Of a DNA stretch of 64,000 nt, positions 39,044 to 53,602 are shown piece by piece. The notes below the pieces were generated by a model that was not told where the DNA came from, searched no databases, and saw only the letters and a program-made list of their open reading frames with translations. This DNA is from Gammaproteobacteria bacterium (GTDB taxonomy: Bacteria > Pseudomonadota > Gammaproteobacteria > Chromatiales > Chromatiaceae), in assembly GCA_009928645.1 (NCBI GenBank), contig SACH01000002.1, positions 1 through 64,000 on the forward strand. The letters run 5' to 3'. Position 1 is the stretch's first letter, and each line of letters starts with the position of its first letter. The position numbers and the translations under genes were made by a program.

Positions 39044-40150
39044 TTACAACAGATCTTCACTCCGGAGATTTCGCTCGGCGTAGGCGGCGCCAATGTCACG
39101 CAACAGGGGGATCAGCTTGAGGTTATCGATGTCGAACCCGGTTCTGGTGACTTTCCGGGCCAGGGCGATCTGTTCGGCGGAGAAGAGCAGGTTGTAGCGC
39201 AGATAGGTGAAATGGTTGCCTGAGGCCTCGCCTCGAATGTTGCTTGGGTTGGCTCCAGCCCCCCCGTCCTTGAGATCCCCGATCTCACAGTCGATCTCAT
39301 CGCCGAACCGGCACTGGCCGAGGACCCGACACAGCAGGTCCTGTTGCAGGCTGGAGGAGTCGATGAGGGCCACCGGCACGCGGCGGGCGTGAAAGAGCAG
39401 GCTCATCTCCTCCGCCGTGGCCGTACCGGAGGTCACGCGCACCCGTCCGGTGCCAATCGAGACCAACAGCAGCTTATCCAGGCCCCGTTCCCATTCCAGG
39501 TGAAAACAAGGCAGGGTCGCCATGAGATAGAGGAGCAGGCTGGGGTTGTTGTAGGGCGTGATGCCACCATCCACGAAGACCTGCTGGCGGCCGCCGAGGA
39601 CAATGGTTTCCGGGGGGAAAAAGGTCGGGGCGGCGGTGCTGGCCCGCACCAATTGCCACAGGGGGATGCGCAGGTTGCACTCCGGCGAGGCGGGGTCGTT
39701 GAATTTGGCGGCGGGGTTGTTGGAGATCGGCCAGGGTGAGCCGGTGGAATAGTTGCGCATCACCAGGCACAGCAGGGTGCGCAGTTTGCGGGTGCCCAGC
39801 AAGGCCGGCACCCGGCCCGCTTCATCTTCAGCGAAAACCTCCTTGAGCATGCCGGTAATGGCCTCCGCGGCATACTTGCTCTGCCAGCGTTTGTACCAGG
39901 GTGCGGGCCGGAAGATGTCCATCCCCCGGCGGATGTACAGGTCCTCAATCTCCGCCACCGGCATGCCCCAGGACAGGCAAGTGGCGATGATGCCGCCGGT
40001 GCTGGTTCCGGCGATGTAGTCGAAGTAATCCCCCAGGACCATATTGGGCTTACCGGTCTTGGCGCGCAGCATTTCCTCCATCCGCGCCAGGACCTCCAGG
40101 GTGAAGATGCCGCGGATGCCGCCACCATCCAGGGCCAGGAGTCGTTTCAT
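39044..40150 (-). CDS. Patatin-like phospholipase
   Basis: DGGGIRG, GTSTG (GxSxG), DGG catalytic motifs. Confidence 0.9.
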   Translation of the reverse strand: MKRLLALDGGGIRGIFTLEVLARMEEMLRAKTGKPNMVLGDYFDYIAGTSTGGIIATCLSWGMPVAEIEDLYIRRGMDIFRPAPWYKRWQSKYAAEAITGMLKEVFAEDEAGRVPALLGTRKLRTLLCLVMRNYSTGSPWPISNNPAAKFNDPASPECNLRIPLWQLVRASTAAPTFFPPETIVLGGRQQVFVDGGITPYNNPSLLLYLMATLPCFHLEWERGLDKLLLVSIGTGRVRVTSGTATAEEMSLLFHARRVPVALIDSSSLQQDLLCRVLGQCRFGDEIDCEIGDLKDGGAGANPSNIRGEASGNHFTYLRYNLLFSAEQIALARKVTRTGFDIDNLKLIPLLRDIGAAYAERNLRSEDLL

Positions 40151-40182: not shown

Positions 40183-41697
40183 TCAGCCATAGCGGGATTC
40201 CTGGCTCAGGGTAAACCAGTCGGCGATCTCTCGGGCCAGATAATGTTCGACGCGGGCAATGGCCCGCTGCAAGGCCGGGGGATGTTGGCAGGTCTCCACC
40301 TCTTGCCGCGCCGCCAGCAGGAAGTAGACCAGGGCGCGGGAGTGGGCCAACTGGCCGTTAAGGTCGAACACCGCTACCAGCGCCAGGGCGCAACCGGCCA
40401 GACCGGGCAGCGCCAGAGGCAGAAAGTGGCTTAGGGTCCGGCTGACCTCCGGGCTGAATCCTTCAGTGCCGTACATCCCGGCGTAGAGCCCGCGCAGCAC
40501 GGCCAGGGCGGAGAAGAACCAGAAGAGGGTGATCAGGCGCCGGCGCAGCCGGGCGAGCCGGGCGGCCCGGGCTTGGTGGTAGTGGAGTTGATCGTCAAGG
40601 CGGAGGCGCAGGTAGCGCTCCCGGATGTCCGCCAGGGGGGGTGGCGTGGTGGGGCGCGCGCCCAGATGCATCATCCGCAGCGAGGTCGCGAGGCGCCCAA
40701 AGGTCTCCCCCAGGCCCTGGAGGTCCGGCAGCACCAGCCGGGGCAATTCCCAGGTGGCGATGGCGGCCCGGCAGATCTCCGCCGCCACGCGGCAATGAAT
40801 CCAGCGTTCATGCACCTTGCGGAACTTGAGATAAAAGCCGCCCCCCATGGCCCCGGCGGTCATGAGGAATACCAGGGCGTCGAGGGCGGGCAGGCGCAGG
40901 GTGAAGGCAATGATGAAGGCCACCAGCAGGGTGGCGCCGGTATTCAGCACCAGGGAAGAGGCGACCCAGCGGCGGAAATTCGGCGCCGTCCGGCTGGCCA
41001 TACGGTCGACCTTGGCGAAAAACCGCAACAGATTGACAGGAACGGGGGAGGGGAGAGTCGGTTCCGTCTCGCGCTCCTCCGCCAGGCCGTTGAGGTAGCG
41101 CAGTTCCTCATCCACGAAAGGCCGGGCCCGCCAGCCCTCGCGCCGTTGCTCCAGGGTGTCCGGGTTTAGCAGGATCAGTGGTTTGCCGATGCCGCGGGCG
41201 TAGGCAACGATGTCCCCCGTGCCGCCCGGTGCCGCTGTGGGTTGGCCATCCCAAACCGCGATGACCAGGTCGGCCTGATCCACCGTCTCCATGCCACATT
41301 CCAGATCGGCCTCCTTGCCACCGTTGAGGGTGCCGTGGACCTGGACCTCGGTCGCTCGGGCCAGCAGTTGCTCCCGGCGTTGCCAGGCCGCCGGGGAAAA
41401 GTCCTGACGCAGCTCGGCCACCGGCAGCAGGACACGCCAAGGGAGCGACATGCCCAGGACTGCCTGGGCGAAGAGGGTATCCGCCCCCGGGGCGATGGAC
41501 GAGACCCCGACCAGGGTGCCCTGGATCTCCACGCTCAAGGTGCGCAGCAGGGCGGACAGGGCCTCCCCGACCGCCTCCGGACGACGTAGATGCTGGTGAC
41601 CCTTAAGGGCGACGAGCCAGTAGGGACGCAGAGCGGATAAGGCGTGGGGGGATGTCATCGAGGCGAAGGCGCGGGGATATTGTGGCGCGGGGCTCAC
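40183..41697 (-). CDS. SLOG-like nucleotide-binding domain fused to paired-TM (SLATT-like) membrane region
   Basis: GVSSIAPGADTLFAQAVL...DQADLVIAVWDGQPTAAPGGTGDIVAYARGIGKPLILLNPD; two TM clusters each followed by helical segments. Confidence 0.65.
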   Translation of the reverse strand: MSPAPQYPRAFASMTSPHALSALRPYWLVALKGHQHLRRPEAVGEALSALLRTLSVEIQGTLVGVSSIAPGADTLFAQAVLGMSLPWRVLLPVAELRQDFSPAAWQRREQLLARATEVQVHGTLNGGKEADLECGMETVDQADLVIAVWDGQPTAAPGGTGDIVAYARGIGKPLILLNPDTLEQRREGWRARPFVDEELRYLNGLAEERETEPTLPSPVPVNLLRFFAKVDRMASRTAPNFRRWVASSLVLNTGATLLVAFIIAFTLRLPALDALVFLMTAGAMGGGFYLKFRKVHERWIHCRVAAEICRAAIATWELPRLVLPDLQGLGETFGRLATSLRMMHLGARPTTPPPLADIRERYLRLRLDDQLHYHQARAARLARLRRRLITLFWFFSALAVLRGLYAGMYGTEGFSPEVSRTLSHFLPLALPGLAGCALALVAVFDLNGQLAHSRALVYFLLAARQEVETCQHPPALQRAIARVEHYLAREIADWFTLSQESRYG

Positions 41698-41946
41698 ACA
41701 TCATCGACGAAAAAGGGTAGCAGGAAAAGCCGACCCTTCTCCGCGCCAGGCCGGGGTGTTTGACCGGCCCTGCCGGCCAGGCTTCTGCTGGTCTGACGCC
41801 GTCCTATCCCCTTCAACCCGTCCCGCCACGCGCCAGGCTCTGAACTTTGGCCTATCCTATCTTTCTAGAAGAGGCGATTCTCTTCCCTCGCCGAAACGGC
41901 TTCCTTTCCACGCTCCCCACCTTCTCCGCCTTCCTCTGGTGTGCCG

Positions 41947-44900
41947 ATGGCCGATCCTCTGGTTCGTATCTTCGTCTCTTCCCCCTCCGACCTGGATCAT
42001 GAACGGGCCTTGACGCGGAACATCATCGAGGCCCTGGCGCAGGAGTACCTGCCTTATTTCAAGGTCCAGGCGGTCCTCTGGGAACAGGAGGCCCTGACCG
42101 CGGCCCAGAGCTTTCAGGCCGGCCTGGTGCGGCCCTCGGACTGCGAGATCGTGCTGGTCATGCTCTGGGCACGCCTGGGGACGCCCCTGGCCAATGATCC
42201 CTATGGCGGCCTGACCGGGACCGAGTGGGAGTTCGTCGACGCGGTGGAGGCCTCGGCGCGCACCGGCAGCCCGGAAGTGCTGGTCTATCGCAAGACCGCC
42301 CCCTGCCTGGTGGACGTCAACAATCCCGAGGCGGCGCGGGAGGCCCTGGCGGATCGCAGCCGTCTGGAGGCCTTTTTCCGCACTCATTTCTTTAATCCTG
42401 ATGGCAGCTTCCGACGTGCCTTCCGCCAGTTCAGCAATGATCATTCCTTTCGCGAACTGGTCGAGACCCAACTGCGCAAGCTCCTCAACCGCCGTATCAG
42501 CGCCGAGCGGCGCCTGACCTCCCACCTCCAGGATTGGCAGGGCAGCCCCTTTCGCGTGGACCGGCCCTTCGAGTTCTCCGATCAGCCGATCTTCGTCGGC
42601 CGCGAGATCGAGACCCGGGAACTGATCACCCGCTTGGAGGCCAACGTCGACCGGGGCCGGGGTCTCCTGCTGGTCACTGGCCCCAGCGGCGTTGGCAAAA
42701 GCTCCCTCATCCGCGCCGGCCTGCTGCCCCGACTGGCGCGGCCGTTCCAGTTCCCGGGGATCGCCTTATGCCGCTGGTGTCTAGTCGATCTGGCCGCGGG
42801 GGAGGAGCCCCTCCAGGCCCTGGCCACGGCCGTGAGCGCGCCGACGATCCTCGGCGCGTCACTGCAGCGGTTCGGGCTCGATACCCAGGCCCTGGCCGCC
42901 CTCCTGGTCGCCACCCCGGAGGTGGCGGCTACCGAACTGGCCGCAGCCCTGGCCCAGGTCAGCGTCAAGTTCGCCGAGCAGGCGGGGACGAATGGCGGGC
43001 GGGCGCAACTGGTCATCGTCGTCGATCCCCTGGATGACCTGTTCGGACCCTCGGCAACCAGGGGAGGTTTGGGGCCTGGTGAGGACATGCCAGTCGTAGC
43101 CTCCGGGGAAGCTACGCCCCCCACGGGGCTAGGGGTACCCTTGGCCCCGGCGGCGCTGGCCTTCCTCGCCGCCCTGAGCTGCCTGGCCGCCCGGGACGGC
43201 ATCTGGGTTATCGCCACCCTGCGCAGCGACTTTCTCCCCCTGCTCGCCGGCCTGCCCGAACTCGCGGCGGAACTGGACGAGGTGAGCTGGTTTCCCCTGC
43301 AACCCCCCGCCACGGCCCGCATCCGCCAGGTGATCGAGATCCCGGCCCGGGTCGCCGCCATCGACTACGAGGAACCGACCAGTGGCACTGGACGCGGGCT
43401 GGTGGACGCCCTGGAGGCGGAGGCCGGTCTGCTGACCCATTGGCCCCCGGCCTTGCAGGAGGTTCTTGATGACCTCTACCGGCAAGCGGTCGCTCGCCGG
43501 GACGCAGGGGCGGCCCGGCACTCCCTGCTGACCCTGGCCGATCTGCGGAGCCTGGGCGGGATCACCGGCAGCCTCATCGCCCGCGCCGACCAGCTCTGGG
43601 CGGAACTGCCCCCCCCCCAACGCGCCGCCCTGCCAACCCTGTGCCGAGCCCTGACCACCCTGGAAGGGAGCGGCGCGCCCCGCCCCGGTCTCCGCGCCGG
43701 AGATCTCCAGACCCTGACCCGTCTGCCCGCGGTGGCGCTCCTGGTGGAGCGCCTGATCGCGGCGCGTCTGGTAGTGGCCGATGCGGAGGAGGAGGAGGTG
43801 GAGGCGGCGACCACCCCCCCTGCCGCCCCGAGTATCTGGGACGACCTGCGACGGCTGTGGCGACAGACCCGGGAGGAGCGGCGGATACGTCATGATGGGG
43901 TGGGAGGCCTGTTGCGCCTGGGCACGGACCTGATCAGCAAGGATACCCCCAGCGCCCCGCGTGAGCCCCCTCTCGCCACCGGCGCATCGCCAATCGCCGC
44001 GGGCGTGCCCCCCCTTGCCACCGGCGGGCCACCAAGTACCACCGCAGCCCCCTTCGCCACCGGTGAATCCCTCCCCGGCGCGGAAGCGGACCCCCTCGCC
44101 ACCGGTGAGACCCTCGCCCTCGCGGAAGCGGACCCCCGGGAGTCCGCACGTCGTTGGGAGCGGTTCCGGCCCATCGCCACCTTCATTCATCCGGTGCTGC
44201 TGGAGCGCTGGGGTCCAATTCAGGATTGGCTCGCGGAACCGGCCCAGCGCCGCGATCTCATCCTGCGCTACCAGCTCACCCGCCAGGCACGGCTCTGGCG
44301 GCGTACCGACCGCAACCGGGAATATCTCCTGGGGGAGACCGGCTACGCCGCCGCCCAGCTTTTCGCCACGGCCCACGCCGCGGAACTGGAACCCCTAGAG
44401 CGTGACTATCTGGAGCAGAGCCGCCTGTACCTGGGCGTGCAACGGCGCCGCAACCGCCAGGCGCGCATCCTGGGCTGGACCCTGCTCAGCCTGCTGGTGA
44501 TCGCCACCTCCACCGCCTGGTGGGCCTGGGATGCCTCGAACAAGTCCCGGCTCAGCTTCTATCGCAGCGAGTTACGCAACGCGGAGAGCGCCATCGACCG
44601 CGGTAATACCGCCGAGGCGGTCCGTCTGGCCCTGGCGGCCGGACCCTATCTGCCCGCGGAGGCCACGGACACCCTGAGCCGGGCCTTCATCCGCAACCGC
44701 CTGCTCAGCCTAGTCAATGCCCCGCCCGCCATCGGCACGACCCCTCTGGCGGCGGCCTTCAGCGACGATGGCGAGCGCCTGGCGATGCCAGCCCCCGGGG
44801 GGGGCGCCGAACTCTGGACTCTCCAGGGTCAGCGCTATCATTTCGCCGGGGCCCTGGCAGCTCCGGAAGTACCGATTCATAGCCTCCGGCTGGTCGGTTC

Positions 44901-47085
44901 GGGCGAGGAGGTGTTGGCGCTGGGGATCGGTGAAGAGGGCGTCTGGCGTCTGCCCGCCGCCGCGACTGATCCGCCGACCTGGACCTGCGGTGGACGTCCA
45001 CGCTCGCCCATCGCCCTGGATGCCAGCGGGCGCTATCTGGCGCTGATCCATGGGGAGCGGCGCTCTCCCGCCCTCTGTGTTTTGAGCCTGGTGACCCCGG
45101 GGGTGGTCCTTTGGGATCGCCCGATCCATGACCGCGGCGTCCGCGGCCTGGCCTTTTCGGCCGATGGGCAGCGGCTGGTGACGGCCTCCTTCGATGGCAC
45201 CGCCAAGGTGGTCGCCACCCTCACCGGAGAGGGGCTGGTCACGCTCCCGGATGGCGGCTCGCGGGGCCGGGCGGCCTATCATGCCGCCTTTGATGCGACC
45301 GGTAACCGGGTCGCCGTCGCCTTCGCCGACGACCGCATCCGGGTCTACGACTTGAACGGGCGCCAGTTGGCGGAATTGGGGGTCATCACGCGGGATGGCC
45401 GCAAGATCCGCATCCACCGGGCTTCGGTGCGCAAGACCGCCTTTGGCCCCGAGGGACGCACCCTGGTGGCGGTGGATGACGATGGCCAGGTCGTGCGCTG
45501 GGACCTGGAGACGGGTGAGGCCCAGATCTTCGGTCATCATGACCTGGCGGTGGACCAGGTGCAGATCTCGCCGGGAGCGGACGCCGGGGAGGAGGAACCT
45601 CTCGTCCTCACTGCCTCCCAGGATGACACCATCCGGCTCTGGGGACTCTGGAGCGGCCAGAGTCTGGGCGTCATCAGTCACGAAGGGGATGTCACCGAGG
45701 CGCGCTTCAGCCGCGATCAGCGGCGCATCCTCAGCTATTCCAGCGAGGACGGCTCGGCCCGGCTGTGGTCGGTGCGACCGGCGGCGAGCTTCGTCCTCCA
45801 ATTTCCCCAAGCGGACCAGGTCGCCCATCTGGCCCTGGCCGCGGCGCCGGCGGCTGAGGAAGGTGCATCCCAGCCGGGAGGTCCGTATACGACCCTGCTG
45901 GCATCCGGTGCCCATGATGGCCGTATCGAGGTTTGGCGCCTGGAACGGAACGCGGCGGGGCTGGTACCGGCCTTGCGCTGGCGCCTGGGTGGTGAGGGCC
46001 AGGGCCACCAGGACCGGGTCCGTCGCGTAAGTTTCTCTCCCTCTGCCGAGCTGCTAGCCAGTGCCGGCTTTGATGGCACGGCCCGGGTCTGGGATCTGGC
46101 CAAGGGTGAGGAGGTCTGCACCCTGGCCCTGACCCCCGATGCCCAGCCCTGTACCCAGAACGGCAACCCGGACTGCCCGGTAATCTATCATGCGCTCTTC
46201 ACCCCTCAAGGTGACTGGTTGCTGACGGCCTCGAATGATTCCTGGTATCCGGTGCGCTTGTGGGATTTGCGGGCCTGCGTTCCCTTGGGCGAGGATCTGC
46301 CCATGGACCCGGGCGCTGGCAGCGTCCGGGCGGCGGCCCTGGCCCGGGGCGAGGAGGGGGAGGTCTGGGTGGCCAGCGGCGCCGAAAACGGCACGGTGCG
46401 CGTGCTGCGGGTCGATGCCGCGGGCCAGTGGACCCCGGTCTGCGCCGGGCCCTGGCACAAAAATACCGTCCAGGATCTGGCCTTTAGCCCCGATGCCCGC
46501 CATCTGGCCACGGCCAGCGAGGAGGGCCGTATCGCCCTGGTCGAGATCGCCGGGGGCTCCTGTAGCAAACCCCGTTATCTGGAACCTGAGGCCGGCCCGG
46601 CCACCAGTGTGCGCTTCGCCCCGGATGGTCGGACCCTGGTCACCGCCAGCGGCGAGGGAGAGGCCCAGGTCTGGGACCTGAATGGCACCCTCCTTGCCCG
46701 ACTGAGCGGCCACAAGGCGCGGATCCTGAGCCTCGATGTCTCCCGGGATGGGCGCTGGCTCCTCACCGCCTCCCGCGATGGCACGGTGCGTCTCTGGCCC
46801 AGCCCAACCCTGGCCCAGGCCCAGCCGCTGACGGCCTACCTGACCCTGTCCGCTGGGCTGGGTGGCGCCTCCCATGCCAGCTTCAGTCCCGATGGCCTGA
46901 GTATCGGCGCCGCTTACCGCAACGATGTCGCCTTGCTCTGGCAGGTGTGGAACGAGGGGCCGGTGGCGGACCCGGACTTAGCGGCGACCTGGGGAGCGGA
47001 TCGGGCGCGCCTGTCCCTGATCCAGGCCGCCCAACGCTTCATGGACGAGAATTTGCAGCCGGTACGACCCTTGCCGGCACCTTGA
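41947..47085 (+). CDS. DUF4062 - STAND/NACHT-type ATPase - TM - WD40 repeat protein
   Basis: DUF4062 start VRIFVSSPSDLDHERA; Walker A GPSGVGKSSL; TM RILGWTLLSLLVIATSTAWWAW; many WD40 blades (RVRRVSFSPSAELLASAGFDGTARVWDL). Confidence 0.88.
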   Translation: MADPLVRIFVSSPSDLDHERALTRNIIEALAQEYLPYFKVQAVLWEQEALTAAQSFQAGLVRPSDCEIVLVMLWARLGTPLANDPYGGLTGTEWEFVDAVEASARTGSPEVLVYRKTAPCLVDVNNPEAAREALADRSRLEAFFRTHFFNPDGSFRRAFRQFSNDHSFRELVETQLRKLLNRRISAERRLTSHLQDWQGSPFRVDRPFEFSDQPIFVGREIETRELITRLEANVDRGRGLLLVTGPSGVGKSSLIRAGLLPRLARPFQFPGIALCRWCLVDLAAGEEPLQALATAVSAPTILGASLQRFGLDTQALAALLVATPEVAATELAAALAQVSVKFAEQAGTNGGRAQLVIVVDPLDDLFGPSATRGGLGPGEDMPVVASGEATPPTGLGVPLAPAALAFLAALSCLAARDGIWVIATLRSDFLPLLAGLPELAAELDEVSWFPLQPPATARIRQVIEIPARVAAIDYEEPTSGTGRGLVDALEAEAGLLTHWPPALQEVLDDLYRQAVARRDAGAARHSLLTLADLRSLGGITGSLIARADQLWAELPPPQRAALPTLCRALTTLEGSGAPRPGLRAGDLQTLTRLPAVALLVERLIAARLVVADAEEEEVEAATTPPAAPSIWDDLRRLWRQTREERRIRHDGVGGLLRLGTDLISKDTPSAPREPPLATGASPIAAGVPPLATGGPPSTTAAPFATGESLPGAEADPLATGETLALAEADPRESARRWERFRPIATFIHPVLLERWGPIQDWLAEPAQRRDLILRYQLTRQARLWRRTDRNREYLLGETGYAAAQLFATAHAAELEPLERDYLEQSRLYLGVQRRRNRQARILGWTLLSLLVIATSTAWWAWDASNKSRLSFYRSELRNAESAIDRGNTAEAVRLALAAGPYLPAEATDTLSRAFIRNRLLSLVNAPPAIGTTPLAAAFSDDGERLAMPAPGGGAELWTLQGQRYHFAGALAAPEVPIHSLRLVGSGEEVLALGIGEEGVWRLPAAATDPPTWTCGGRPRSPIALDASGRYLALIHGERRSPALCVLSLVTPGVVLWDRPIHDRGVRGLAFSADGQRLVTASFDGTAKVVATLTGEGLVTLPDGGSRGRAAYHAAFDATGNRVAVAFADDRIRVYDLNGRQLAELGVITRDGRKIRIHRASVRKTAFGPEGRTLVAVDDDGQVVRWDLETGEAQIFGHHDLAVDQVQISPGADAGEEEPLVLTASQDDTIRLWGLWSGQSLGVISHEGDVTEARFSRDQRRILSYSSEDGSARLWSVRPAASFVLQFPQADQVAHLALAAAPAAEEGASQPGGPYTTLLASGAHDGRIEVWRLERNAAGLVPALRWRLGGEGQGHQDRVRRVSFSPSAELLASAGFDGTARVWDLAKGEEVCTLALTPDAQPCTQNGNPDCPVIYHALFTPQGDWLLTASNDSWYPVRLWDLRACVPLGEDLPMDPGAGSVRAAALARGEEGEVWVASGAENGTVRVLRVDAAGQWTPVCAGPWHKNTVQDLAFSPDARHLATASEEGRIALVEIAGGSCSKPRYLEPEAGPATSVRFAPDGRTLVTASGEGEAQVWDLNGTLLARLSGHKARILSLDVSRDGRWLLTASRDGTVRLWPSPTLAQAQPLTAYLTLSAGLGGASHASFSPDGLSIGAAYRNDVALLWQVWNEGPVADPDLAATWGADRARLSLIQAAQRFMDENLQPVRPLPAP

Positions 47086-47164: not shown

Positions 47165-47800
47165 TCAAGGAGCTGTCCCTTTCCCCTTGCGCCATGCCCG
47201 TAGGTCCGTCACCACCGCCATGGCCAGGCGCTCTGCCAGGCGGGTGGCGGCGGCGGCCATGTCGGCGGGAGTATCCCCCGCGACGATCTCCTCGGCATCA
47301 TAGCGACGTACCAGGAGGGGGCGGCGGTCATCGGCCTGGAGGAGGGTCAGACTCAGGGTGCCCGCCATCCGGGGTGGCGTCGCCGTGGGCAGGTGCTCGA
47401 AACGCTCCACCTCGCCGCTTAGGAGATAGTCCGCACGCCCCCGGTCGGCAGGAATCAGGACGAAGCGGAAGAGCCCAGCGCCGCGGATACGGGCCGCCAG
47501 GTGACGGGACAGGGCCCGCGGTACCGGTTCGTCCCAGAGCAATTGTTGGTAGCGTTGGGTTTGCCAGGGGTCCGCCGCGGTGCGAAAGACGATCTGCCGC
47601 CCGCCGAGGAAACCGTGGGCCGCCAGTTCGTTGACTTGCAGATCGTCTGAACCGCTGGCGGGCGAAGGGGCATTGAGTTCGGGAGCGGTCAGGGGGGCCA
47701 AGGATAGGTACTGATCCTCCCTAACGGTCACCGGCGAACCACAGCCGCCAAGGCCGACGCTCAGGAGGTAGATCAGGATGGAGCGCTTCATTTGAACCAT
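47165..47800 (-). CDS. ABC-type transport auxiliary lipoprotein (PqiC-like)
   Basis: Lipobox LLSVGLGGCGS; overlaps the MCE gene. Confidence 0.75.
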   Translation of the reverse strand: MVQMKRSILIYLLSVGLGGCGSPVTVREDQYLSLAPLTAPELNAPSPASGSDDLQVNELAAHGFLGGRQIVFRTAADPWQTQRYQQLLWDEPVPRALSRHLAARIRGAGLFRFVLIPADRGRADYLLSGEVERFEHLPTATPPRMAGTLSLTLLQADDRRPLLVRRYDAEEIVAGDTPADMAAAATRLAERLAMAVVTDLRAWRKGKGTAP

Positions 47801-48921
47801 GGGGCTTGCTCCTCGGTTTCCCGGGGGCGGAGGAGGTGGAGGGGCTGGTTGCGCAGTTCCTGGGAAAAGGCGGCCAGGTTGCGGCTGGCGTCCTCGATGT
47901 TGGTCAGGATGGGGGTGAGGGACGCCGCCAGGGCCTGCAACAGGAACTGGGTATCATCCAGGGAGCGCTGCAGGGCGGGGCGGTTCTCGTTGACCAGACC
48001 GCGGATGTCGGTGGCCAGGTCCCCATAGTTGTTGACCGTCCGCTGGACGTCCTGGGTGCTGCCAGCCATCTCGGCGGTGATGCGCGCCAGGTCGGCGGAC
48101 ATGGTCTCGACCGAGGCAAGGATGGCGCCGATGGCCTGGGGGTCCACCGCCTTGACCAGGTTGTCCGACAGCAGGCGCAGGTTCTCGAAGGCCCCGGCGA
48201 GCTGCTCGCGATTCCCCGCCAGCCCCTGGCCCTGGTCATCGCCACCGCCGACCAGAAGTTCGATGGTCTTGACCTGATCGCGGATGCTGGCCAGGGTCGG
48301 GGCGATGCTCTCCTCGACCACTAGGCGCACCGTCTCCGTCAGGACGGCGAGTTGCTGGGTCAGGTCGGGCTCGGGGGCGCGGGCGGCGATGATCGCGCCG
48401 GGGGCGAGCAGCTCCGCTGACTGGCCGACGGCGATGCGCAGGGCGTTACCCTTCAGTAACCCCAGGGTGGTAAGCCGCACCTCGCTGTCCTGGGGAATGG
48501 GCCACTGGTCGCGGATGCGCAGGATGGCGCGGAAGCAGGGCAGGGTCGGGGAGCGGGGCGGGGCCTCGGCGGCGGGCGCCGGGCAATGGCGGCCATGGGC
48601 CGGATCGCCAGGGAAGACCGGCTGGACGCGCTCCACCAGGCCGATCACATAGCCCTCCTGGAGCAGTTGCATCCCCGGGTCCAGGCCATCCGCGTCGGGG
48701 AAGTAGGCCTCCAGCCGGTAGGCCTGACCCAGGAGTCCCGGCAGGATCAGGGCAAAGACCGCCACGACGAGGACCGCCATGGCCAGGACGAAGATCCCCG
48801 CGAGGAAGATCTGACGGCGCTCGTCCAGGGCCCGGCGCTTGCCGGGGGCCCCGATCTCGGGCGGGGCGTAGAGGCGGTCGAGACGCCGCGCGGCGGGAGG
48901 GATGGGGTGGTTGTCGCTCAT
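47788..48921 (-). CDS. MCE/MlaD-type lipid-binding protein
   Basis: TM plus MCE domain (YRLEAYFPDADGLDPGMQLLQEGYVIGLVERV...VRLTTLGLLKGNALRIAVG). Confidence 0.85.
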   Translation of the reverse strand: MSDNHPIPPAARRLDRLYAPPEIGAPGKRRALDERRQIFLAGIFVLAMAVLVVAVFALILPGLLGQAYRLEAYFPDADGLDPGMQLLQEGYVIGLVERVQPVFPGDPAHGRHCPAPAAEAPPRSPTLPCFRAILRIRDQWPIPQDSEVRLTTLGLLKGNALRIAVGQSAELLAPGAIIAARAPEPDLTQQLAVLTETVRLVVEESIAPTLASIRDQVKTIELLVGGGDDQGQGLAGNREQLAGAFENLRLLSDNLVKAVDPQAIGAILASVETMSADLARITAEMAGSTQDVQRTVNNYGDLATDIRGLVNENRPALQRSLDDTQFLLQALAASLTPILTNIEDASRNLAAFSQELRNQPLHLLRPRETEEQAPWFK

Positions 48922-48992
48922 TGGGTCAGCTTATCAGTCATCACGTCAGGCCTTGCGCGGCAAGGTACGGGTTAAGGCCGGGTCGGGTGAGT

Positions 48993-49751
48993 TCAAAACC
49001 GGCCTCCCAGGGCGGTGCGCAGTTCCAGATCCCCGGTGCTGGCGGCGGCCAGGGTTTCCGGGGTCCCCTGAAAGAGCAGACGCCCGCGGTTCAGCACCGC
49101 GACCCGCGCGGGGATGCCCCCTAGGGCATCGGGGGTGTTATCGGTGGCGAGCAGGGCCATGGGCTGGCCGCCGCGCAGGCTGTCCAAGACGGCGAGGATC
49201 TCCCGTGCTACCGTCGGGTCCAGGCCGTCGGAAAGGCCATCCCATACCAGGAGCCGGGGGCGGCGGATGAGGGCCCGCGCCAGTTCCACCCGCCGTTGCT
49301 GCCCCAGGGACAGGGCTTGGGGCGAGTGATTTTCCAGCCCGTCAAGGCCCAGCAGGGTTATCACCAGCCGCGCTGCCCGCGCCATCTCCCCGCGCGTTAG
49401 CGGCGCATGACGCAGGGGCAGGAGGATGTTCGCCAGGACGCTGTGATCGGCGAGCAGGGAGCCGCGCTGGATGACGGCGCCGACATCTAGCCGCAATTGC
49501 TCAAGACCACGCCCGTCGAGTTGTGCCAGGTCCCTGCCCAGGACCTGGACGCAACCGGCGGAGGGCCGGTCGAGGCCAAGCACTAGGCGGGAGAGTAAGG
49601 TCTTCCCCGCCCCATTGGGGCCGCAGACCAGAAGCCAGTCTCCTTCCGCCAGGTCGATGCTCAGGCCCTGCAGGGCCAGGCGTCCGGCCACATGCTGGAA
49701 GACGCCATCCAGACTCAACGCCAGGGACATCCCGCTCCTCTCGGTTGGCAA
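48993..49751 (-). CDS. ABC transporter ATPase, MlaF-like
   Basis: Walker A GPNGAGKTLLSRL; signature LSLGQQRRVELARAL. Confidence 0.9.
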   Translation of the reverse strand: MPTERSGMSLALSLDGVFQHVAGRLALQGLSIDLAEGDWLLVCGPNGAGKTLLSRLVLGLDRPSAGCVQVLGRDLAQLDGRGLEQLRLDVGAVIQRGSLLADHSVLANILLPLRHAPLTRGEMARAARLVITLLGLDGLENHSPQALSLGQQRRVELARALIRRPRLLVWDGLSDGLDPTVAREILAVLDSLRGGQPMALLATDNTPDALGGIPARVAVLNRGRLLFQGTPETLAAASTGDLELRTALGGRF

Positions 49752-49879
49752 GCGTTCACCGCCCCCTGCGGCCTGGGCTGGCCTAGGTTGTACAAGCCGA
49801 TGATGTTCTTACTCCCTCCCTCCTGGTGGGGAAGGGTCGGGGAGAGGGGGTCTGAAGGGTTACCGCGGTGTTGGCCATC

Positions 49880-50665
49880 TCAGACCCGCACCAGGATGAT
49901 ATACAGCAGGTCCGTGACCAGGATAGCCGTGACCGCCCCGATCATAGTCCCGGTGGCGGCACCGGCGATCCCACCTGGCCGGCGACCCGCGCCGATGCCG
50001 TTCAGGGTGGCGATCAGGGCGATCAGTACGGCGAACAACAAGGGTTTGACCAGGGCCTCGATGAGGGCCTCGGGGGTCAGGGCGCTGGTCAACATCTCCA
50101 GGAACAGGGCCGGCGCTACCCCGGTGCTGGCCCAGAGCCAGACCCCGGCCACGCTGAAGGTCACCAGGGTCCCCCAGACCATGAAGGCGAAGCTCATCAG
50201 CAGCATGGCCAGCAGGACCGGGGCGAGAGTGAAGGGCAGAGGCGCTATCCCGCACACCAGCAGCCCGTCCATCTCGCCGGTGGCCAACAAGGTCGCCTGC
50301 CGCACCGCCAGGGCGACCCCGGCCCGACCCGCCACCAGGATGCCGACCAGGACTGGCAGCACCTCGATGATGAGGACCAGGGCCACCGTCAGGATGACCA
50401 CCACGGGCAGATCGAACTGGGTGAGGATGCCTTCGACCTGGTGCCCGAGGATGAGGCCGATGGCGACCATGACCAGGGTGATGGCCGGCAGGATCGACAG
50501 ACCGGACTGCTGCAGGGCGGCCGCGAAGGCTGGCAGGTCGAAGCGCGCCCGTCCCACCAGGACCTGGCCATAGAAGACCAGACAACTGGCCAGGGCCAGG
50601 GCCGCCAGGCCCAGGGCCTCGATCCAGCCCCGGGGGCCGCGGAAGTTTAGTAATCGAAGGTCCAT
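49880..50665 (-). CDS. MlaE-family ABC transporter permease
   Basis: MlaE-like IEVLPVLVGILVAGRAGVALAVRQATLLATGEMDGL. Confidence 0.85.
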   Translation of the reverse strand: MDLRLLNFRGPRGWIEALGLAALALASCLVFYGQVLVGRARFDLPAFAAALQQSGLSILPAITLVMVAIGLILGHQVEGILTQFDLPVVVILTVALVLIIEVLPVLVGILVAGRAGVALAVRQATLLATGEMDGLLVCGIAPLPFTLAPVLLAMLLMSFAFMVWGTLVTFSVAGVWLWASTGVAPALFLEMLTSALTPEALIEALVKPLLFAVLIALIATLNGIGAGRRPGGIAGAATGTMIGAVTAILVTDLLYIILVRV

Positions 50666-52779
50666 GTCAGTCCGGCGCCGTCAGGATTGAGCAGGATGCA
50701 TTTGTTCGGCGTTTCCCCGCCGTCCGCAATCGCCCTGATTTCCGGGGATTGGTCGTTAAGAATGAGGTGGATCTCGGCCCGGCGGGCGAACCAGGTGGCC
50801 ATTTCCGCCGCGCCGCGCAGGCTGATGCGCCGTTCGGCCTGGGTCAGCAGGTCCAGAAAGTCCCGGCGGGCGGCGGGCGGGCTCAGCCGGGCCAAAAGCT
50901 GGCTGAGGGGGCGGGGCAGCAGCAGGAAGAGACCCGCGGGCTCGGCCCCCGCCATCAACACCCGGGCCAGGTCGCGCTCCCGGGCATCGGTCAGGGTGGT
51001 GGCGATGACCAGGGCGCGGTCCGGATAGCGTTCGCGTAACCCTTCTCCCAGCGCCGTCGCCAGGCTCCGCAAGGGTTTACCCGTCGGACAGGCGGCTCCA
51101 GGGGAGTGAACGCCGAGGATGAGCAGCCGCTGGATACCGAGCCCCAGGCGGGCAGCCAGGGTCGGCAGACCGCGCACGGCGAAGCGGTCCAGGTCCTTCA
51201 TCGCCTCCGACAGGTCCGCGTAGGGGATGAGTTGGGGGTGGAGTTTGCGGGCATTGTCGCGCGCCGGGCCATAGGACCAGCCATCCAGATAACGGTCCGC
51301 CGCCCAGCGCTCGTGTTCGACCATCGCCAGCCGCTCGACCTCCAGGGGGCTCAGGGCGAAGGCCTCCACCAGTTCCTCCGCCACCGCCCGGCAGTCGGTG
51401 ACGGCGAGCTTGGCCCAGACATGGTCGGCCTGATGGCGGTTGGCCTGGCGATAAGAAGTCGCCAGGCGCTCCCAGGGCTGGCCAGCGGGCTCCTGGGTCA
51501 GGTCCCGCCCCTGGGCGGCGATGGTGTCGCAATAGTGCTCGTGAATGGTGCGCGCCAGCTCGTCCCCGACGCCGTCGAGGAGCAGGGCGGCGCGGCAGGC
51601 CTCCCGGCGATAGGCGAAGGGGATGATCTGGCCGTCCCAGTCGTCGATAACGCCCCCCGGTTCGGCATCACCCACCTCCAGCAGTACCGGGGTGGAGACC
51701 CCCTGGACAGCCGCCAGTTCGTCGATCAGGCGGCGCGCCAAGGCCAGGCCCGGGTGGCCAACGCTCTCAACAGCAGAGCGCGCCAGGCCAGGGTTGCTGA
51801 CCTGATCAGCGGTGGCTGGGATAAGCCCGGGGATACTGCGGAGGTCAGCGGTGGAGGAGACCCGAATGGGGTTGCTGGCAAGATCAACGGCGGAACGGGC
51901 CAGCCCAAAGTTGCTAGCGTGATCAGCCGTGGGAAGGTTCTGCGGGATGGTGGGATCGCCGGGTTCAGGATGCGCGGTCGGAGTGTCGTCCATACAGACC
52001 AGGGCCAGGGTGACTGGCGGATTGGCCGGGGATGGTGAGCCTGGATCGGACGCGACCGTTGCCCGGAGCAGACGGGACAAGTCCTTCAGGGGCGCAAAGC
52101 CCAGGTCGGCAATCCGGTGAGCCTGGGGATAAGCGGCCAGCAGATCGGCGGCAATGGCCTCATGATGGTCGCAGACCAGGCTGATCCGCGGCCGGCCCTG
52201 GCCGTAATGGGCCAGCCGCAGGGCCTGCAGCAGCAGGGCCCGCGCGGGGGGGGCGAAACCGAGGAGGAGCAGGTGGGGGACCTGGCCAAAACCGGGGTCG
52301 AGACCCAGGTGCGGGGGCCAACGGCGAAGGACCGCGCGGGCGGCGCGATCCTCGATGGCGAAGGTCTCGATCCGCAGCGGGTCGCCCGGCTCCGGCGCGG
52401 GCAGGGCCGGGGCGGGGTCACGGGGGTGCATGAGGATCAGGCGCTGAACCGGTGGCGATCGGCCTGGCCAGGCCCCCCGCCCGGCCAGCCGACTACCCGC
52501 CTGGTTTTGGCGGTTGGCTTTCCGGGCGCGGGTGAACAGGTGGGTGACCAGGGTAGGGGCATCCGGTGGATCGGCCAGAATCAGGACGGGGGTTCGGGCC
52601 GGGTCCAGCGCTGCTGAGTCCAGCAGGGTCAAAGTGTTGGCCTTGTCCGGTGCCAGCGCATCCAGAGGATCGAGGCGCCGCGCCCGGTGGCCCTCCCGGC
52701 GCAGACTGACGACCACCAGGTCCGCCAAGGAATCCTCGCCTAGTACCAGGATGGAGGTTCGCCGGAAAGAGAGGGCCAT
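50647..52779 (-). CDS. RyR-domain protein with TrkA-N-like N-terminus and uncharacterised C-terminal domain
   Basis: RyR motif LSPLEVERLAMVEHERWAADRYLDGWSYGPARDNARKLHPQLIPYADLSEAMKDLDR; N-term SILVLGEDSLADLVVVSLRREGHRARRLD. Confidence 0.75.
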   Translation of the reverse strand: MALSFRRTSILVLGEDSLADLVVVSLRREGHRARRLDPLDALAPDKANTLTLLDSAALDPARTPVLILADPPDAPTLVTHLFTRARKANRQNQAGSRLAGRGAWPGRSPPVQRLILMHPRDPAPALPAPEPGDPLRIETFAIEDRAARAVLRRWPPHLGLDPGFGQVPHLLLLGFAPPARALLLQALRLAHYGQGRPRISLVCDHHEAIAADLLAAYPQAHRIADLGFAPLKDLSRLLRATVASDPGSPSPANPPVTLALVCMDDTPTAHPEPGDPTIPQNLPTADHASNFGLARSAVDLASNPIRVSSTADLRSIPGLIPATADQVSNPGLARSAVESVGHPGLALARRLIDELAAVQGVSTPVLLEVGDAEPGGVIDDWDGQIIPFAYRREACRAALLLDGVGDELARTIHEHYCDTIAAQGRDLTQEPAGQPWERLATSYRQANRHQADHVWAKLAVTDCRAVAEELVEAFALSPLEVERLAMVEHERWAADRYLDGWSYGPARDNARKLHPQLIPYADLSEAMKDLDRFAVRGLPTLAARLGLGIQRLLILGVHSPGAACPTGKPLRSLATALGEGLRERYPDRALVIATTLTDARERDLARVLMAGAEPAGLFLLLPRPLSQLLARLSPPAARRDFLDLLTQAERRISLRGAAEMATWFARRAEIHLILNDQSPEIRAIADGGETPNKCILLNPDGAGLTWTFDY

Positions 52780-52792
52780 CCCTTGCTTGTCC

Positions 52793-53602
52793 TCAACAGG
52801 CTAAGGCTTGCGCCACAAGCCGGGGCAACTGGCCCGGGGCCTCCATCAAGTCCAGAACCTCGACCAGGGCGGGAGCGAAGCCCGCCTGATCGTCCACCGG
52901 TAGCGGTCCCTTGCCACGGCGCCAGGCGACCAGGGCTTCCGCCGTGCCTCCGCTGCCGGCGAGCGCCAGGATCCGACCTGATTGACGGAGCCGGTGCAGG
53001 ATATCCCGCCGGGTGATCTCCCCGCCCCCGGCCACCAGCATCAGGGTGGCCCGCCCAATGGCCAGCCTTTCGGCCACGGCCATGAGCCAGGGGGATTCGT
53101 CGCCCCAGCACTCTCCCGGTACCAGGAGGAAATGGCTGTGATGGGGGTCCAAGGCGACTCGGGGCTCTTGCCGATCTTGCCAAGCGGACCGATACGGGGC
53201 TGGGTCAAGCTCCGGCACGGGCCTCGAATTCTCAGGAGTGGTCGTCCCCGGATACGGGAAGGCTACCCGCCCGCGAGGCGCCATCCCGATGAGCGGAAAA
53301 CGCCCGCTGGCCTGCTGGCGCGCCTCGCCCATCAAGGCCATGACCCCAAAATGGGTGCCACCGTCGATCACCGCCGCCCCCAGCCGATCCAGAACGGGCA
53401 CCAGGTCCCTGAACAGGGGACACAGCCGGACCGCTACCTTCGCGTCGAGATTGGCAGCGCCCCCGACCAGGATCAGCACCGGGCGGGGGCCGGTCAGACC
53501 GATAGCGGCCAGAGCGGCGCCCACCGCCGATGCCGGCGAACCCTGGGGGCAGGCGAACGCCGCCGGGGAATCGAGGCCGATGGCGTGAGGATCAGGGTTC
53601 AT
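52793..53602 (-). CDS. TRPM-type SLOG (LSDAT prokaryotic) domain protein
   Basis: VLILVGGAANLDAKV...GAAVIDGGTHFGVMALMGEA...HHSHFLLVPGECWGDESPW...LMLVAGGGEITRRDILHRLRQSGRILALAGSGGTAEAL. Confidence 0.75.
   Translation of the reverse strand: MNPDPHAIGLDSPAAFACPQGSPASAVGAALAAIGLTGPRPVLILVGGAANLDAKVAVRLCPLFRDLVPVLDRLGAAVIDGGTHFGVMALMGEARQQASGRFPLIGMAPRGRVAFPYPGTTTPENSRPVPELDPAPYRSAWQDRQEPRVALDPHHSHFLLVPGECWGDESPWLMAVAERLAIGRATLMLVAGGGEITRRDILHRLRQSGRILALAGSGGTAEALVAWRRGKGPLPVDDQAGFAPALVEVLDLMEAPGQLPRLVAQALAC

Follow-up and report, generated by a model that had tools for sequence, protein, structure and literature searches.

The stretch of DNA analysed here (the window, 64,000 nucleotides) raises the question why ligand-binding domains of the type found in animal RyR and TRPM channels are encoded together with a bacterial MCE/Mla-type lipid transporter. 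The window is part of a 4.83 Mb genome and the homologous loci belong to Chromatiaceae; a locus from the window's genus group carries the label Candidatus Thiosymbion sp. R3-B40, which suggests the same family for the window. Downstream of a TmcA gene, six genes follow each other on the minus strand. The first codes for a 269 aa LSDAT (TRPM-type SLOG) protein (52793..53602; Pfam LSDAT_prok, 6.7e-57), the second for a soluble 710 aa protein with a Rossmann (TrkA-like) part and a RyR domain, a putative nucleotide sensor (50647..52779; Pfam RyR, 6.8e-14). Then come a 261 aa MlaE-family permease of a family-restricted subtype with six hydrophobic segments (49880..50665; PF02405, 9.4e-33), an MlaF-like ABC ATPase with an intact Walker A motif (48993..49751; ABC_tran, 1.9e-23), a 377 aa MCE protein with an N-terminal transmembrane segment at residues 42-60 (47788..48921; MlaD, 1e-5; Mtu_fam_mce, 4.9e-14) and a 211 aa PqiC-like auxiliary lipoprotein with the lipobox LGGC (47165..47800; ABC_trans_aux, 1.3e-10).

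A sequence-only reading had placed six closely spaced genes with two overlapping junctions at exactly these positions. All six are open reading frames there and carry the same domains by Pfam, their codon-position GC is consistent with coding sequence, and the junctions measure, in order, 13, -19 (overlap), 128, 71 and -13 (overlap) bp. Among the profiles which that reading had expected, LSDAT_prok, RyR, MlaE, MCE and ABC_trans_aux were found. TrkA_N had no Pfam match in the RyR protein; its TrkA-like region is suggested by homologues which match TrkA_N and can be aligned over most of its length. Because the gene order recurs across many genera the operon is more than a chance arrangement. MlaE permease, MCE protein and ABC ATPase in one operon make up an MCE/Mla-type gene set, and Mla-type ABC parts joined with a PqiC-like lipoprotein have the composition of an Mla-Pqi chimera. 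From its family, such a system would be expected to move phospholipid between membranes. RNA families and tRNAs were absent from the window, and promoter and terminator counts were no higher than in shuffles.

Is the pairing of RyR and MCE genes real? RyR and MlaE profiles were run over one set of 210 order-level genomes. RyR and this MlaE subtype were jointly present in 56 genomes, RyR was alone in one (G520), an MlaE fragment was alone in another (G508), and 152 had neither; that is, 56 of the 58 genomes with either gene had both (a Fisher test of this co-occurrence ignores phylogeny). In genus g275 three members had both genes and four had neither. The RyR and MlaE trees were congruent (patristic r=0.917). 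A sample of 311 other genomes of the class contained no MlaE of the window's subtype at E<=1e-45. Shared vertical descent in a single clade may account for part of the co-occurrence and of the tree congruence.

RyR and MlaE were adjacent in eight genera (g1, g282, g304, g311, g312, g313, g315, g320) and at most 3.5 kb apart in two further ones. The order LSDAT-RyR-MlaE-MlaF-MCE-lipoprotein was observed in Thiorhodococcus, Thiocystis violacea, Thiobaca, Marichromatium, Imhoffiella and the window's genus. In one genome (G472, locus L185) the order was shuffled to MlaF-MCE-RyR-MlaE, with RyR staying within the MCE cluster. A very divergent RyR protein headed an MCE operon in four genomes from two other genera (G446, G546, G547, G548; loci L229-L231 and L254); the two loci that were fully read, L229 and L230, ran RyR-MlaE-MlaF-MCE-lipoprotein. 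In many genera the RyR gene was tens of kb away from the MCE operon or on a different contig; therefore, co-transcription is not general. Synteny, on which the sequence-only reading had staked the pairing, proved not to be universal: co-occurrence within Chromatiaceae nearly is, whereas full-length RyR relatives outside the family, as well as one family member (L253), had no MCE genes nearby. A universal RyR-MCE synteny was rejected on this ground and because 31-52 kb separate the two modules in several Thiocapsa genomes. These data support a real RyR-MCE pairing in which co-occurrence is retained even where the genes are unlinked. RyR and the MCE transporter are the tight core of the locus.

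The Mla and Mla-Pqi (Mpc) transporters (E. coli; Brucella abortus, PMC12436622) likewise have MlaE, an MlaF-like ATPase and a single MCE protein, and the PqiC-like lipoprotein gives the window system a mixed Mla/Pqi composition as in Mpc, a likeness that does not imply orthology. Unlike them, the window-type operon contains a RyR and often an LSDAT gene, no STAS protein (MlaB), and an ATPase without the catalytic glutamate and the H-loop histidine. In the window's MlaF-like subunit Walker A (GPNGAGKT), the signature (LSLGQ), the Q-loop and the D-loop are kept. The LLxxDE site reads LLVWDG, which replaces the Walker-B glutamate by glycine, and the H-loop reads TDN with asparagine for histidine; measured by Walker A, Walker-B glutamate and H-loop histidine together, this is not an intact ATPase. 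The loss of the Walker-B glutamate is a hallmark of a degenerate ATP site at which hydrolysis is too slow for transport (PMC7544095). The same two replacements were present in 48/48 RyR-associated MlaF homologues, which are therefore not filed as ordinary ATP-driven Mla pumps. In the divergent RyR operons glutamate was changed to aspartate and histidine to serine (4/4). In contrast, both residues were retained in 17/17 control MCE ATPases from Chromatiaceae. The controls comprised seven MCE operons of family members without RyR and ten other MCE operons of RyR-bearing genomes; two of these ten were from the window's own genome, and all ten kept both residues. The Walker-B and H-loop columns were located with an LptB sequence as anchor, and it is the in-family controls that carry the conclusion. 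As read from the alignments, every RyR-associated MCE ATPase examined is without the catalytic Walker-B glutamate and the H-loop histidine. This is new. The sequence-only reading had missed a catalytically degenerate ATPase, which shifts the probable mechanism from a gated pump to a nucleotide-switched conduit.

The RyR protein was modelled with AlphaFold (mean pLDDT 83, pTM 0.85) and matched Repeat12 of human RyR3 with ATP or ADP bound. The Pfam match covers residues 481-539 (51151..51339, minus strand); the model contains a whole Repeat12-type domain exceeding this extent, and so profile and fold agree on RyR Repeat12 (PF02026). A linker at about residues 273-334 is variable and of low model confidence, and no membrane segment is predicted. 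H489, W492, H514 and D531 in the Pfam core are equivalent to the ligand contacts H75, W78, H100 and D117 of phage RyDEP (offsets +3, +25, +42), an assignment based on their equal spacing and on alignment with other phage homologues rather than with RyDEP's own sequence. All four were invariant in 37 homologues, and the divergent operons have them too. RyDEP is an R12-domain protein that cleaves 2'/3'cADPR via H75 and D117; W78 contacts adenine and H100 the phosphates; six of eight phage homologues tested bound signals, and only one tested was catalytic (2026 preprint, PMC13232231). From these residues one may reasonably predict that the pocket binds an ADPR-like or another adenine nucleotide, but not that it cleaves the ligand, and four residues cannot reveal ligand specificity. 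The Repeat12 fold and the equal spacing of the four contacts are common to phage RyDEP, animal RyR and the window domain, but the latter is fused to Rossmann domains in a chromosomal 710-aa protein that goes with a lipid transporter. In the phage record BK061591, a RyR-domain match overlaps a Pseudomonas phage protein with an anti-CRISPR annotation. A literature search for RyR domains with MlaE or OsmC returned nothing relevant.

Outside the family RyR domains were rare (3/368 other genomes of the class, 6/248 others of the phylum). Six TrkA_N-RyR proteins of other Pseudomonadota (L245, L246, L248, L249, L250, and L253 of the family member) have a homologous Rossmann and RyR core over most of their length. 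They differ from the window protein in their TIR, STAND, caspase and CRISPR contexts without MCE genes, and in that one or two N-terminal membrane segments are predicted for four of them. L245 has a TIR gene as neighbour, L248 a caspase, and L249 and L253 STAND-like genes. At L245 (9192-12735) the TIR gene next to the TrkA_N-RyR protein has a peptidoglycan-binding domain, and at L246 (127-1242 and 1498-3210) a membrane-anchored TrkA_N-RyR protein adjoins a CRISPR-associated NE0113-family protein. The transporter-tied RyR protein seems to have lost its membrane part.

The LSDAT protein is an accessory member: LSDAT_prok was detected in 31/210 genomes, and these include 27 of the 57 RyR genomes. 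In homologous loci that have it, it is directly upstream of RyR; G546 and G548, two of the genomes with a divergent operon, have it unlinked to RyR. Its model (pLDDT 86.9) had the TRPM2 chanzyme as the best PDB fold match, so profile and fold agree on LSDAT/TRPM SLOG. In TRPM2, Y295, R302 and R358 contact ADPR (PMC6759353); the equivalents in the window are W166, L173 (I/L/M in homologues) and G219. A TRPM2-type ADPR site was rejected, as only an aromatic residue at Y295 is kept while R302 and R358 are not conserved. Fold and LSDAT family are shared with TRPM channels and LSDAT-SLATT fusions, yet the window protein stands alone with no SLATT domain or channel. In other Gammaproteobacteria (L002, L003) LSDAT is in proteins of 630-670 aa which by inspection resemble LSDAT-SLATT fusions. 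Another SLOG family (LDcluster4, PF18306) was absent from the window's own genome. Literature on LSDAT with RyR yielded nothing relevant; an earlier mention in a SLOG survey (10.1093/nar/gkv1267) is possible.

In most genera beyond the window's own, genes for DJ-1/PfpI, GGACT-like and OsmC proteins, names that were assigned by sequence inspection, precede RyR or LSDAT-RyR (L034-L040, L067-L110); neither the window nor its genus showed this block. In the window, a plus-strand gene (41941-47085) for a protein with DUF4062-like (8e-5, below cut-off), nSTAND1 and WD40 parts is convergent to the operon with a gap of 80 bp. Further along, a minus-strand gene (40183-41697) codes for a SLOG-like/SLATT-like protein with two hydrophobic segments and weak SLATT_3 and SLATT_1 matches; it is followed by a patatin-like phospholipase (39044-40150, minus strand), possibly a separate conflict pair.

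Could RyR and LSDAT belong to an OsmC/DJ-1/GGACT redox module which in some genera merely sits beside the MCE operon? Loci with OsmC upstream of LSDAT or RyR outnumber loci with MlaE downstream, and the Thiocapsa distances fit such a reading. However, RyR co-occurs almost perfectly with this MlaE subtype, is embedded in the rearranged MCE cluster of L185 and heads the divergent MCE operons, and ATPase degeneracy tracks RyR; a neighbourhood without function is quite unlikely. ATPase degeneracy has its own alternative. E. coli MlaF functions as a homodimer; therefore, unless a canonical MlaF is contributed in trans, both ATP sites should be degenerate. Such a partner is available: 14/14 genomes checked, including the window's, have two to four MlaE genes each, and the other copies are adjoined by MlaF genes with glutamate and histidine. 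A heterodimer would keep the transporter ATP-powered, with RyR as an ordinary regulatory subunit, and ABC exporters are known in which a heterodimer has one degenerate site (PMC7544095, PMC7756269). Yet the operon encodes its own MlaF, and canonical and degenerate forms are only about 27-36% identical. We know of no MCE complex with mixed canonical and degenerate MlaF. On balance we regard the heterodimer as unlikely.

An anti-phage function, proposed in the sequence-only reading as phage-conflict signalling, would have a TIR or STAND protein make an ADPR-type signal upon infection, LSDAT and RyR sense it, and the MCE complex act as a membrane-disrupting effector. Phage RyR domains do handle cADPR signals (PMC13232231), the TrkA-like RyR relatives outside the family are beside TIR, caspase and STAND-like genes, and several genera have relatives of the DUF4062-nSTAND1-WD40 gene close to the MCE operon. 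This convergent DUF4062-like gene is a weak candidate for the signal producer. A Thoeris-like producer was not identified: the operon has no TIR gene, and a TIR_2 match was missing in three of 11 genomes checked, the window's own included. Further, PADLOC matched neither the LSDAT nor the RyR protein, inheritance is vertical, congruent and family-wide, and the conserved neighbours are OsmC, DJ-1 and GGACT and not defence genes. Phage conflict was thus not borne out, and we consider an anti-phage role very unlikely.

The best explanation, to which we give an even chance, is that Chromatiaceae have a lipid transport system of the MCE type, specific to the family, whose motor has been turned into a nucleotide-operated switch. 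MlaE, together with the MCE protein and the PqiC-like lipoprotein, would form a phospholipid conduit from inner to outer membrane, as in their families. With Walker A, Q-loop and D-loop kept, the MlaF-like subunit should be able to bind ATP; because the catalytic glutamate and the H-loop histidine are missing, it should hold the state of the conduit and not power it. The Rossmann-RyR protein is predicted to bind, in its Repeat12 pocket, an adenine nucleotide of the ADPR/cADPR class and may set the state of ATPase and permease, as MlaB does in the E. coli Mla system. LSDAT, where present, would be a second nucleotide-binding input. The conduit would be set jointly by ATP occupancy and the RyR-bound nucleotide. 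The likely trigger would be oxidative, electrophile or envelope stress, not phage infection; redox or envelope stress is favoured because of the OsmC/DJ-1/GGACT neighbours in relatives. More specifically, an MCE transporter with both ATP sites dead may have become a lipid conduit gated by an ADPR/cADPR-binding Repeat12 RyR protein derived from a membrane-anchored TrkA-RyR protein, a version we put forward tentatively and with some doubt. Nucleotide-gated lipid transport, as in the sequence-only reading, thus keeps the pairing and a RyR pocket fit for adenine nucleotides or ADPR; the LSDAT part is weaker, as the protein is accessory and the TRPM2 residues R302 and R358 are not conserved in it.

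Taken as a nucleotide-controlled switch, the locus would be an ABC lipid transporter operated in this manner and would provide a bacterial partner for the animal RyR and TRPM ligand domains, with testable ligand and output. Such an MCE system could not draw its direction and driving force from ordinary ATP hydrolysis, which matters for the question of how MCE systems move lipids. For purple sulfur bacteria and their symbiotic relatives, the data suggest a vertically inherited envelope lipid conduit that is nucleotide-switched and not ATP-powered.
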